Origin: Enterococcus dispar ATCC 51266
GTDB taxonomy: Bacteria > Bacillota > Bacilli > Lactobacillales > Enterococcaceae
Reading direction: 5' to 3'
DNA: 64,000 nt
NCBI RefSeq assembly: GCF_000406945.1
Contig: NZ_KE136354.1
Span: 2,614,660 to 2,678,659 of the forward strand
Shown here: one piece after another, positions 3,608 through 54,885 of the stretch
Layout of the letters: the number at the start of each line of letters is the position of its first letter
How positions within the stretch are numbered: position 1 is the first letter of the stretch
Made by a program: the position numbers and the translations under genes
The notes under the pieces: generated by a model
Told to the model about the DNA's origin: nothing
Database searches by the model: none
Seen by the model: the letters and a program-made list of their open reading frames with translations, nothing else

Positions 3608-3624
3608 AAGTGGGAGGCAGGCAG

Positions 3625-4143
3625 TTGGAGGTTAAAGTTAATGAATTATCAGAAAAACAGCTAGATGAGTTAGCAAAAAAAATAGTAGTGTCGATTCGCA
3701 AAGATAGAGAACAAGAAAAAAAGCTATTTAAAAAAAGAGCTTTTCATAACGCAAAACTTCTAATGACGAATTATCATAAATTGAAAGCACATAGCAACGC
3801 TGTCGAAGAGCACGTTGAAGAAGTGCAAGGGACTTTTTGGGAACATAAGTGGTTGAATCTAGATGTTTTAATGCAAAATAAAGCCAAGTCGGTAAAACTG
3901 ATGAAACATGTAGATATTTGTTTGAAGGCTTATGAAGAGATGTGTAAATCATCAACTAAACCAGAAGATTTGCGAAAATGGCGAATCATTAATAAAAGGT
4001 ATATTGAAGCTCCTTTTTTAAGTGAGGACAAACTAGCAGAACAATTGCATGTGGATCGTTCTACTGTGAATCGAAACTGCAAAGAAGCATTGGCAGATTT
4101 GTCAGTTATATTATTCGGAATCGATATGATGAATGACTGGTAA
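3625..4143 (+). CDS. arpU: ArpU-family late transcription regulator
   Basis: The product is 172 aa from a TTG at 3625, which has GGGAGG (3612-3617) 7 nt upstream; an upstream GTG at 3610 is possible but overlaps that site. The N-terminal half is a basic helix-rich region (KLFKKRAFHNAKLLMTNYHK). The C-terminal HTH resembles sigma region 4 (LAEQLHVDRSTVNRNCKEAL). This layout and the position immediately before the late operon fit the ArpU/LlgA-type regulators of Gram-positive phages, which switch on packaging, morphogenesis and lysis genes. A likely target lies just downstream: an inverted repeat at 4148-4162 in front of a -10 box. Confidence 0.8.
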   Translation: MEVKVNELSEKQLDELAKKIVVSIRKDREQEKKLFKKRAFHNAKLLMTNYHKLKAHSNAVEEHVEEVQGTFWEHKWLNLDVLMQNKAKSVKLMKHVDICLKAYEEMCKSSTKPEDLRKWRIINKRYIEAPFLSEDKLAEQLHVDRSTVNRNCKEALADLSVILFGIDMMNDW

Positions 4144-4147
4144 TCCA

Positions 4148-4191
4148 TGCACAAAACGTGCACACATATGCCACAATTAAAGGTATATAAT
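4148..4191 (+). promoter_or_regulatory. putative late promoter with inverted-repeat operator
   Basis: TATAAT (4186-4191) has no good -35 box at 17 bp. Instead TGCAC-AAAAC-GTGCA (4148-4162) ends just upstream of the expected -35 position. That is the arrangement of an activator-dependent promoter, and the adjacent ArpU-type protein is the obvious candidate activator. The expected start is near 4198. Confidence 0.55.
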
Positions 4192-4197
4192 AGTATT

Positions 4198-4735
4198 ATC
4201 AAAAGTAGCGGGAAACAGACAGAACAGCTATGACATGAGATTTCCTCCTGAAATCAATTTTTGAATGATGGTGTCTGGTTTCCCGTTTTGTCACTGTGGC
4301 GGAAATAGTAGACGCAAGGCATGTGTGCCTGGTTAATGCTTCGGCAACCGTGAGTGGGGCAGTGCCACTCCAGTGACGTTGGGAGGACTTCATAGCATTG
4401 CGTGGAGTATCTGACCCAATAAGGTTGATACAGCACTATAGACCATTAGGCACTGAGCTTGTCCAGTAGGGTGCTGTCAGGACAAGTCAATCTCAAATGT
4501 TGGCTATCTAGTCATAGCCCTGACGTGTAGTTTAAGGAATGGTAAAAACAACTCCACTATCAGGAGTAGATGCAGTGTCGAGAGCTGCCACGTCAATAGC
4601 AACCGATCATTCCCAACCGCCAGGCATGGAAAAACGGTGGGTCCCAGAATGGGGTAGGTTGCTTAATTTGAAATGGTTGCTAACCGGAAACGGTAAGGTG
4701 ACTAAAGGGCATCCGTTTGTGCGGGTGTCTTTTTT
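4198..4735 (+). ncRNA. candidate large structured non-coding RNA of the prophage
   Basis: No credible gene lies between the late regulator and terS. The stretch starts behind a promoter and ends in tandem terminators, and it is packed with pairing: 4209-4221 with 4272-4285 (13 bp, one bulged G); 4239-4244 with 4250-4255; 4318-4321 with 4326-4329; a UUCG-capped stem at 4337-4346; 4352-4357 with 4365-4370; 4458-4464 with 4480-4486; 4502-4507 with 4514-4519; 4551-4555 with 4563-4567; and a GAAA-capped stem at 4683-4694. The size (about 540-570 nt) and Lactobacillales prophage setting are like those of the ROOL and GOLLD giant RNAs, but I cannot confirm membership; a new class or a late leader RNA is possible. 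Confidence 0.65.
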
Positions 4736-4767
4736 AATACATAAGACAGTCTTCGGGCTGTTTTTTT
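4704..4767 (+). terminator. tandem intrinsic terminators before terS
   Basis: The first stem is 4704-4715 with 4722-4733, with a T-run from 4730. The second is 4743-4751 with 4756-4764, capped by TTCG and followed by seven Ts. They would end the structured RNA and separate it from the late operon unless RNA polymerase is made termination-resistant. Confidence 0.8.
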
Positions 4768-4800
4768 ATTTGCATAATTTTAGAGATTGGAGGCGATAAT

Positions 4801-5157
4801 GTGGAATTAAAAAGAATACATCAAAATGCTATCGTGATGCTGTTTGAAGGAGATATGACACGGGCAGAAATCGCCTCTCAACTCCAGATAGCAGAATCAA
4901 CGCTTTACAACTGGCTGAAAGACGATGACTTTAGCAAGGCTTACGATGACCATGTTAAAACGATTATGAGCAAGTCTTCTGGCAAGGCGTTAAACACGAT
5001 GCTTTCTTTACTGTCCGCTAAATCCGAGATGGTAAGGTTTAATGCTGCGAAAGATATCATGGATCGTGGCGGACTGGCACCGATTGACAAGCAAGAGATT
5101 AAACAGGATATCAACTTTGACATCGTGATTGACGATTGGGATGATGACGATGCTTAA
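4801..5157 (+). CDS. terS: terminase small subunit
   Basis: The product has 118 aa from a GTG with GGAGG 7 nt upstream. An N-terminal HTH (MTRAEIASQLQIAESTLYNW) for recognising the packaging site is followed by a helical oligomerisation region and an acidic tail (IDDWDDDDA). It precedes and overlaps terL. The small subunit binds the pac or cos region and hands DNA to the large subunit at the portal. Confidence 0.85.
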   Translation: MELKRIHQNAIVMLFEGDMTRAEIASQLQIAESTLYNWLKDDDFSKAYDDHVKTIMSKSSGKALNTMLSLLSAKSEMVRFNAAKDIMDRGGLAPIDKQEIKQDINFDIVIDDWDDDDA

Positions 5158-5921
5158 AATCAACGATCCCAAGAAAGTGTTTAACAAATATATATACGAT
5201 TGCTTATACGACTACACGCACCCGACAGAAGTCCACTATGGCGGCGCATCAAGTGGGAAATCACATGGAGTAGTGCAAAAGGTAGTTGTTAAGTCGCTAA
5301 AACATTGGGATTACCCAAGACGTGTCCTGTGGCTGAGAAAGGTAGCTGCGACTGTTAAGGATTCTATCTTCCAAGATGTATTGGAATGCCTGTCTACATT
5401 CAAGCTACTGCCATTTTGCAAGGTTAACATGAGCGATTATCGAATAGAGTTGCCAAACGGCGCTGTATTTCTGTTTAAAGGTATGGACAATCCGGAAAAG
5501 ATTAAATCAATCAAGGGAATCTCTGATGTAGTCATGGAAGAGGCGACCGAGTTCACTCTTGACGATTACACGCAATTAACACTACGGACACGGGAAAAAC
5601 GGCATAAGGATAAACAAATCTATTTGATGTTTAACCCGGTTTCTAAAGTCAATTGGGTGTACAAATACTTCTTTGTTAGTAAGCAACCAGACGCGGTTAT
5701 CTATCAAACCACATACAAAAGTAATCGCTTCTTAGATGACAGCGTTAAACGCAATATCGAGCTGTTAGCTCAACGGAACGAGGCTTACTACAAGATATAC
5801 GCACTAGGCGAGTTCGCCACGCTAGACAAGCTGATATTTCCTAAATATGACAGAGCATTATTAAATAGAGGAAGTCCTGCGTTTTCTCGTTTACCATCAT
5901 ATTTCGGTCTTGACTTTGGGT
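5150..5921 (+). CDS. terL: terminase large subunit, exon 1 (ATPase and start of nuclease)
   Basis: This is the 5' part of terL, interrupted by a group I intron. From the ATG at 5150 (ATGs at 5141 and 5144 are alternatives; the start is uncertain and overlaps terS) it encodes 257 codons plus one base. Walker A is GGASSGKS at about residues 31-38 and Walker B VVMEEA at about 127-132. Exon 1 ends in LDFG plus T, so the intron falls directly after the first catalytic aspartate of the RNase-H-like nuclease. Unspliced, the frame runs into the intron for 24 further codons, giving a truncated protein ending NAGCAA. Spliced to 6912-7384 it gives 414 aa, normal for the family. Confidence 0.92.
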
Positions 5922-6080
5922 TAAAATTAGCCCCTTTGCGCAGTAATGTGCATAGAAAATTCAGTGAACCTGTAAATGCAGGGTGTGCAGCCTAAAAAGC
6001 TGCGCTATCGGTGAAAATCTAAGTTATTAGGATATACAAAAGACCCAAAAAAATGTTATAATAATCACGAGGTGGTAAAT

Positions 6081-6740
6081 GTGATTATTTATATGTTTAA
6101 AAATAAAATAAATGGTAAAACATACATTGGGCAAACCATAAGAACATTTGAAGAAAGAACCAGCGAACATTTGAGACACACGGAGACTTGTTTCGACAAA
6201 GCCTTAAACAAATACGGTATTGAAAATTTTGAATATTGTATTATTGATGAAGCTCTATCACTTGATGAATTGAACGCTAAAGAAACTTATTGGATTGCTA
6301 AAACGAACTCTATGATTCCTAATGGCTATAACTTGTGTTTAGGTGGCAACAACACTTGCGGGTATACACACAGGGAGGAGTCGAAAAGAAAAATGAGTTT
6401 GACAAAGAGAAAAAACGGCAGTATGAAAGCTGAGAAAAATCATTATTACGGTAAACACCATACTCTGGAAATCCGAGAGAAAATGAAAAAAGCGTGGACT
6501 CCAGAAAGGAAAAGTAAACTCAGTGAGCAGTCTAAGAGGCTTGACCGGAGCTATCAATTTGTGAGAGTTAGAAACAAAGAAACGGGAGAAATATATAATT
6601 CTGTTAAAGAAGCTGGTGAAAAAACCGGAGTGTTAGCGACACACATTACAAGAGTTTGCAAAGGGAAACGCAAAAGCGCCGGTGGAATCAAATGGGAATA
6701 TGTGGATTCTAATAATAAGACAATACCGAGCCAAGCCTAG
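6081..6740 (+). CDS. GIY-YIG homing endonuclease in the terL intron
   Basis: The product is 219 aa from a GTG at 6081 behind GAGGTGG; a GTG at 6072 and ATG at 6093 are alternatives. The catalytic domain opens with IIYMFKNKINGKTYIGQT, the GIY-YIG signature, followed by the catalytic Arg in EERTSEH and a Glu near AKETYWI. A NUMOD3-like segment (HREESKRKMSLTKR) and a C-terminal NUMOD1/IENR-like DNA-binding module (NSVKEAGEKTGVLATHI) follow, as in I-TevI/I-BmoI-type enzymes. It would cut intron-less terL alleles and spread the intron. The free-standing look is due to the intron; it is inserted between P-helices, not between genes. Confidence 0.92.
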   Translation: MIIYMFKNKINGKTYIGQTIRTFEERTSEHLRHTETCFDKALNKYGIENFEYCIIDEALSLDELNAKETYWIAKTNSMIPNGYNLCLGGNNTCGYTHREESKRKMSLTKRKNGSMKAEKNHYYGKHHTLEIREKMKKAWTPERKSKLSEQSKRLDRSYQFVRVRNKETGEIYNSVKEAGEKTGVLATHITRVCKGKRKSAGGIKWEYVDSNNKTIPSQA

Positions 6741-6853: not shown

Positions 6854-6911
6854 GTGGTTGAAGATATAGTCTACTCCCCTAATAAATATCGGGAAACCGA
6901 GGGTATACAGG

Positions 6912-7384
6912 ACGTCAACGATCCATCAGCATTTATCCACGTCAAAGTCGATGAGCCAAACAAGACGCTCTACTTTATCGAAGAATACGTCAAGAAAGGC
7001 TTATTAAACGACCAGATAGCTGATGCAGTCACTGCACTAGGCTACGGCAAGGAAATCATTACGGCAGACTCTGCTGAAAAGAAATCCATTGCTGAAATGC
7101 GCCGACACGGCATTAGTCGGATACGAGAGGCTAAGAAAGGCCCTGACTCGATTATCCAAGGCATACAGTTCTTGCAACAGTTTCGACTGGTGGTAGACGA
7201 GCGGTGTGTGAAACTAATCGAAGAATTGGAAAACTACACTTGGACAAAAGACAAGAAGACAAATGAGTACACCAACAAACCAGTGGACTCTTACAACCAC
7301 GTAATTGACGCCACACGCTATGCTGTCGAGTCAATCAATGGCAAAGGCAAAGCGCGGGTTAAATCATTTAAAGGAGGACTTTAA
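6912..7384 (+). CDS. terL: terminase large subunit, exon 2 (nuclease)
   Basis: This is the 3' part of terL after the intron, encoding YVNDPSAFIHVKVDE onward to SFKGGL. It carries the rest of the RNase-H-like nuclease: ITADSAEKKSIAEMRRHGI, with the second acidic residue, and NHVIDATRYAVES near the end, with the third. It ends directly before the portal ribosome binding site. Translation of this exon depends on splicing; an in-frame GTG at 6854 lies inside the intron and is not a genuine start. Confidence 0.92.
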
Positions 7385-54671: not shown

Positions 54672-54885
54672 GACAAACCTCTCACAAAACATAGCGCAAC
54701 TTAGCAAAAGCTAAGACAGTCCGCCAGGTATTTCCCGTGCGTCCCAACAAATCCGTGAGCAAACACGTGATCCATTTCGGCATCATTCCCTAGGCCTGCG
54801 TCCTAATATTTGCTTACTCAACAGGATTAATGAATGATGCGACCTCTACCTCGGTGACGGAGGTATCTCGTATTCAGTTGATAGT
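54672..54885 (-). ncRNA. lysine riboswitch (L box)
   Basis: On the minus strand the leader reads in order GAGGTAGAGGTCGC (54839-54852), GAGTA, GGGAATGATGCCGAAATGG, GGAAATACCTGGCGG and GAGAGG. This is the order of the conserved L-box blocks: AGAGG-type P1/P2 junction, AGTA, the GGnnnnnnGCCGAAnnGG element, and a CTGG near the 3' end. With the terminator downstream, lysine binding should stop transcription of the transporter. Assignment is from remembered motifs, without a covariance search. Confidence 0.85.

Follow-up and report, generated by a model that had tools for sequence, protein, structure and literature searches.

The described systems closest to the locus studied here are ROOL, which forms homo-oligomeric RNA cages, GOLLD, another cage-forming RNA, the class-II leucine tRNAs, and tmRNA, which combines tRNA-Ala-like ends with a coding part. 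In passages of the commentary PMC12515178, a suppressor-tRNA precursor fused to the 3' end of ROOL is described as leaving the cage undisturbed, and passages of PMC12286853 describe tRNAs that are sometimes held in the GOLLD linker; related material is found in passages of PMC5593968, PMC7724050, PMC9241854, PMC5643018 and PMC12191101.

The window analysed here is a stretch of 64,000 nucleotides from Enterococcus dispar ATCC 51266, and all coordinates of the locus refer to it. The original prediction placed a large structured RNA between a late regulator gene and terS. The prediction was borne out by folding of positions 4192-4767, which gave -194.3 kcal/mol compared with -169.9 +/- 6.1 kcal/mol for shuffled sequences (z -4.0, none of 100 shuffles as low), and by the flanking genes, which matched phrog_1558 and phrog_36 on one side and phrog_2538 on the other. 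When ten pieces were folded alone, seven were modestly separated from their shuffles (z -1.4 to -3.0) and three 3' hairpins were clearly below them (z -3.9 to -4.4). Pfam and NCBIfam searches with the regulator gene gave no match. The other predicted landmarks were recovered as well: the bulged 5' helix turned out slightly longer than claimed (4207-4221 with 4272-4287, one bulge), UUCG loops were found in module B (4340-4343) and in the second of the two terminators, and the GAAA-capped hairpin lay just before the first. The features are collected in Table 1.

Table 1. Features of the late-leader RNA locus and its flanking genes (window coordinates)
Feature	Position	Strand	Basis
Late transcription regulator gene (putative role)	3610..4143	+	phrog_1558 (unknown function) E 8.8e-50; phrog_36 transcriptional regulator E 9e-5
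Probable operator: TGCAC, TGCAC, TGCCAC words, 11-bp spacing	4148..4175	+	read from sequence
TATAAT -10 box	4186..4191	+	sequence; corresponding places in relatives
Module A, leader hairpin; CUCCU in inner loop (4245-4249)	4207..4287	+	fold
Module B, anticodon-less class-II tRNA-Leu-like domain (TLS)	4290..4377	+	fold, covariance model, pairing statistics
Module C, GGGAGGACUU...GUAUCUGACCC frame, variable inside	4378..4420	+	8 distinct sequences including the window; fold z -2.8
Module D, hairpin	4422..4493	+	4 distinct sequences including the window
Small hairpin; GGAGGUAGCUCC in relatives	4502..4519	+	fold, relatives
Module E, degenerate class-I tRNA-like cloverleaf, drawn by eye	4521..4596	+	comparison with relatives
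Module F, GCAACCGA...GUAGGUUGC frame	4598..4663	+	10-sequence alignment
GAAA-capped hairpin, loop 4687-4690	4674..4704	+	fold
Terminator 1	4704..4735	+	fold
Terminator 2, UUCG loop 4752-4755	4743..4767	+	fold; simple terminator scan
terS, first late gene	4801..5157	+	phrog_2538 E 2.1e-41

The predicted TATAAT box was present; no -35 box accompanies it, and the consensus promoter scan does not list this promoter. In 16 late-promoter stretches chosen by eye from relatives, some of them mutually related, an 11-bp periodicity was observed (z 11.0 at lag 11, not above 1.8 at every other lag tested). The word in the 11-bp tandem repeat varies among phages (window 4148-4175 and 15 relatives) and so do the adjoining regulator genes; a regulator-operator code in the late promoters of these phages is possible. 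The simple terminator scan lists terminator 2 only, terminator 1 being taken from the fold. With a start expected near 4198, the locus would give a non-coding RNA of about 540-570 nt from the phage late promoter, ending at the terminators before terS. The predicted lack of a conserved coding frame held, as each frame contains 7-16 stops over 4192-4735. The largest plus-strand ORF (4539-4799, 86 aa) crosses both terminators, and it is not a kept frame because its register stops at differing places in relatives, after 59 codons in L060, after 36 in L016 and elsewhere in L023, L024 and L015. Two further observations were made in the window: a GIY-YIG homing endonuclease gene, which probably sits in a self-splicing intron, interrupts the large terminase gene (5129-5995, 6072-6740, 6854-7384), and a lysine riboswitch (RF00168, 72.1 bits) lies at 54684-54856 on the minus strand.

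Membership in ROOL or GOLLD, one of the two classifications proposed originally, found no support: cmscan of 4000-4900 at E<=10 listed neither ROOL (RF03087) nor GOLLD (RF02032), only four weak unrelated families. The other proposal, a new class, gained support. Like ROOL, the window RNA is large and structured; unlike ROOL with its one fixed fold, it is a mosaic and has no covariance-model match. With GOLLD it shares being a large phage RNA with a tendency to tRNA company, tRNAs sometimes lying in the GOLLD linker; it differs in lacking a match and in that a tRNA frame itself is a repeated building block. The comparison with tmRNA is similar: both have tRNA-like ends around another RNA, whereas the ends here are tRNA-Leu-like and enclose a variable insert, and ARAGORN finds no tmRNA in the window.

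The window RNA, read against its relatives, is a mosaic of exchangeable predicted folding modules. Six of the 10 genomes searched in the genus and 20 of the 105 in the family had a DNA match; both counts include this genome, and matches outside this prophage span pieces only. Among the relatives read, blocks have constant ends and changing insides, and module B is present in nearly all of them; in L033, for example, a tRNA-Met is there instead. BLAST of the window RNA returned no match among phages and one 66-nt piece among plasmids, likely owing to the mosaic make-up. A pattern scan of genome contigs gave, among the matches listed, three Enterococcus stretches besides mostly chance matches on checking. 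Module A recurs as a 98-nt copy (96% identical) in a further prophage of this genome, with no array downstream; in that natural empty slot (L014 6680-6777) the leader hairpin and terminator alone precede an HNH-like gene. The CUCCU of the leader hairpin is complementary to a Shine-Dalgarno sequence, and by eye similar words recur in relatives' leader hairpins. The place of module E holds a genuine tRNA-Lys or tRNA-Ile in some relatives. In the window, neither ARAGORN nor Rfam tRNA matches module E, and the minimum-energy fold of this piece alone differs from the drawn cloverleaf. The compensatory changes sought for the predicted stems are found in module B; they are weak in module F, where 2 of 22 pairs changed on both sides among 10 sequences. 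Several other module F interiors occur in relatives.

Module B was analysed as a tRNA-Leu-like structure (TLS). In the window its fold comprises a 7-bp acceptor, a 3-bp D stem, a 5-bp arm that ends in a 4-nt loop, then a variable arm and finally a T arm whose 6-bp stem closes a 7-nt loop. It shares with class-II tRNA-Leu the acceptor, D and T arms and the long variable arm; unlike such a tRNA, it carries the 4-nt loop, or elsewhere a foreign insert, where a 7-nt anticodon loop on a 5-bp stem would stand, it encodes no CCA, and TLS are not called by ARAGORN or Rfam tRNA. For the window, ARAGORN reported no tRNA, and Rfam tRNA had no match at E<=10. At the level of sequence and predicted fold, the anticodon of a leucine tRNA is gone from module B, while its acceptor, D and T arms are kept.

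Pattern filters applied to two match sets yielded 83 distinct Enterococcus-type TLS sequences with 31 unlike interior families and total lengths of 88-284 nt; L082 (a chance match) and L128 (likely a true tRNA-Leu) were left out by eye. Conservation of GTCRCTGTGGCGGAAR in the first set, and of the D arm and T loop in the wider set described below, was fixed by the search patterns and is no evidence. Across the 31 interior families 98.8% of the frame cells were paired, compared with 26-49% when the frame was slid by 1-3 positions. Both partners had changed in six pairs, and the observed pairing was reached by none of 1000 shuffles; the sequences here and in the following tests are mutually related, and shuffle counts are not probabilities. 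Subtype T1 was 100% paired (96.5% shuffled, 0 of 1000 as high), and subtype T2, with thin covariation, 97.6% (96.7% shuffled, 7 of 1000 as high). For 13 short TLS copies, four of five measures lay above the shuffles (0, 20, 0 and 0 of 500 as high): 93.2% of cells were paired (0 of 500), 29 cells had both-sided change against 10.0 (0 of 500), and 10 pairs were so changed (20 of 500). The fifth, further pair types, was at shuffle level (265 of 500). The outermost pair of helix 3 was paired in only 4 of the 13 and is unsupported, and the T stem was present in only 23 of the 31 minimum-energy folds. T1 has a D loop bearing GG and a UUCGAUU-like T loop, and T2 has other loops; GG was found in 42 of 42 T1 and 4 of 35 T2 sequences, as expected if the D and T loops touch, although relatedness inflates the count.

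The ancestry of the frame was addressed with the covariance model R1, built from phage copies only and containing no tRNA. In the order, R1 matched in 382 of the 395 genomes; in the phylum, it did so in 372 of 398. At 11 of 16 matched loci, ARAGORN called a tRNA-Leu at the matched place (L390, L392, L393, L395, L399, L402, L407, L408, L409, L411 and L414). At the other five it called no tRNA gene (L389, L394, L398, L383 and L386): L386 is an Enterococcus-type TLS, and L389, L394 and L398 are TLS with another T-loop type, two of the three having acceptor stems quite different in sequence. Behind the TLS of L386, rli28 and RatA matches (960-1273) may by eye mark a type I toxin-antitoxin locus. 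Position 73 was U in 65 of the 83 Enterococcus-type sequences, tRNA-Leu itself carrying A73. The next position was U in all 83, which fits the preference of RNase Z and would suit that enzyme. The structure of module B, its descent from tRNA-Leu and the exchange of its interior are all supported by these comparisons.

TLS were also found next to ROOL. In location the window RNA resembles ROOL, lying in a phage slot between a regulator and terS; the window has no tRNA gene, and some relatives carry tRNAs at the module E place. ROOL was present in 7 of 98 family genomes under stricter filters, this genome not being among them, and six of the seven loci had apparently non-phage neighbours (judged by eye from unscanned ORFs). 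GOLLD was found in none of 105 family genomes, in a search in which no positive control matched. By Rfam, ROOL precedes a TLS in EFP01, L345, L351, L315, L320 and L357, and in L329 by the ROOL motif only. The gap is 13 nt in EFP01 and 10 nt in the other five Rfam-identified cases. These five have the TLS acceptor ATCGCTG or ATTGCTG against CAGCGAT; L315, L320, L357 and L329 share one common TLS sequence. The tRNA island of EFP01 reads ROOL, a T2 TLS, a GAACCUAC...GUAGGUU-frame module, module F and a terminator-like hairpin; module F occurs in seven Enterococcus phage records, of which EFP01 was the one read. A skipping-rope RNA (RF02924) was considered because it stands about 20 nt behind ROOL in L316 (3757-3825, minus strand), in a phage tRNA island; this record was the only one of ten tested that matched, and the candidate was rejected.

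The ROOL motif ACAATAGACG was found within 700 nt upstream of a TLS at 8 loci, two of them one phage, versus 119 loci without it; 23 more had too little upstream DNA, and loci bearing two TLS may be counted twice. Genome G017 contains one prophage with leader, TLS array and terminator and another with leader, ROOL and terminator, the leaders being 93.6% identical over 218 nt and the terminator regions 93.2% over 44 nt. Judged from these sequences, TLS array and ROOL share a slot or are closely linked. The suspicion of ROOL was in this respect a good one, since relatives of the modules follow ROOL elsewhere and ROOL takes their place in one sister prophage.

Neighbouring genes were compared at ten loci, namely nine TLS loci with long flanks and the G017 ROOL locus. 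A phage regulator lay upstream at all ten, and terS downstream at eight, in several families (phrog_509, 51, 2538 and 309); at the remaining two the downstream gene was a methyltransferase gene (L302) or a tail gene (L018). In EFP01, a lytic Herelleviridae phage of Enterococcus, such modules lie in a tRNA island between hypothetical genes.

A wider set came from two IMG/VR scans for the L389-like T-loop type, which gave at least 203 distinct sequences at at least 229 loci. The acceptor was read at a fixed register, pairing not being required; of the 203 distinct sequences listed, 178 paired at 7 of 7 positions, 19 at six and 6 at fewer, the last being omitted from later counts. The 197 others comprised at least 122 different acceptor stem pairs and at least 148 interior families, and ARAGORN called none of the 197 listed. 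Among the 148 representatives listed, the acceptor was 98.8% paired versus 54.5% after exchange between RNAs (maximum 59.3%). Four of the 148 interior families listed had a 5-bp/7-nt anticodon arm after the D arm, and 16 of the representatives had a tRNA gene within 1 kb. Of the flanking ORFs, the scan covered 60 out of 217 on the downstream side, from 22 loci, and 30 out of 91 on the upstream side; its counts are of family members, not of loci. The commonest downstream families were terminase large subunit (5), terminase small subunit (3) and one unknown family (3); upstream we found transcription activator phrog_248 (4), phrog_36 (3), sigma factors (2) and an Alt-like activator (2). Many flanking ORFs belonged to other families. 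Of two queries against named phages, one hit Lactobacillus phages in 28 of 31 records, with query coverage of 80% or more in 4 of the 31, and the other Leuconostoc phages in 13 of 15, with 12 of the 15 at that coverage. Under 40 matches listed, the annotation held no feature in 38, an endonuclease in one, and one record was unannotated. Many phages whose hosts are lactic acid bacteria or enterococci carry TLS-like modules, and from sequence comparison it is safe to say that TLS form a phage RNA family that is widespread and descends from tRNA-Leu. The same holds for the statement that in Enterococcus prophages they belong to the late-gene leader, as one module of mosaic RNAs that share their place or neighbourhood with ROOL.

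As to function, one rather unlikely account is a cis-acting leader of the late operon, in which polymerase would get past the terminators with the help of the folded RNA, in the manner of put RNA in phage HK022, or in which the tRNA-like parts are cut sites that separate leader from late mRNA. The RNA would be the first transcript of the late promoter, with its terminators before terS, and this order recurs; against this, interiors and whole modules vary widely, the second prophage of the same genome has just the leader hairpin and a terminator, and lytic EFP01 has its modules between hypothetical genes. To a decoy function, with tRNA look-alikes soaking up host nucleases, toxins or tRNA-sensing defences, we give little credence. 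Strong variation around a kept tRNA frame does resemble an arms race, and real tRNAs stand at the module E place in some relatives; however, the best-known tRNA nucleases target the anticodon loop, which module B lacks and for which the wider set retains an arm in so few interior families. That the modules are decaying, functionless phage tRNA genes is very improbable: module E does look like a tRNA gone wrong and none of the 83 sequences checked encodes a CCA end, but decay would break the module B stems, which are kept through compensatory change in hundreds of sequences, and the reading is therefore strained. A packaging RNA for terminase, suggested by the adjoining terS, is highly improbable and was set aside because terS families differ between loci; in a lytic Herelleviridae phage the RNA also occurs among hypothetical genes. 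A diverged ROOL or GOLLD, despite similar size, phage slot and tRNA neighbourhood, is scarcely credible when the window has no match at E<=10 and the same library scores the ROOLs in relatives' phages at 246-270 bits.

The account that we favour, tentatively and at a little under even confidence, is a late trans-acting non-coding RNA built as a mosaic of modules, in which tRNA-like frames serve as stable ends for a variable payload. The RNA would be made from the late promoter, stop at the terminators before terS and act in trans late in infection. Its tRNA-like frames, probable substrates of RNase P and RNase Z, may release or display the changing payload; module E would be a second, degenerate tRNA, and ROOL, where present, may be the carrier. 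Most TLS arrays have no ROOL nearby, which we counted against this account. A search for targets of the interiors yielded no usable one in the DNA searched; of two matches outside recognised TLS, one was a cut-off TLS copy and the other was 18 nt long.

In the literature covered, its scope leaving aside most subscription papers and bioRxiv, we did not find such arrays described. An undescribed RNA class may be common to phages of lactic acid bacteria and of enterococci, although we hold this with considerable reserve: a leucine-tRNA frame emptied of its anticodon, which has become a cassette holding hypervariable inserts, is expressed where the late genes begin and in some phages sits on the 3' end of a ROOL cage. 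If this is true, the tRNA frame would amount to a natural tRNA scaffold, and the ROOL cage to a natural carrier. In several Enterococcus phages a tRNA-like module naturally adjoins ROOL on its 3' side, and elsewhere such a module stands without ROOL. Since TLS and ROOL occur apart or interchanged, they should be separately deletable or swappable in prophages, which offers a concrete handle on cage RNAs. The at least 122 paired acceptor versions offer a natural experiment of unusual clarity on which features of the tRNA shape are important without decoding.
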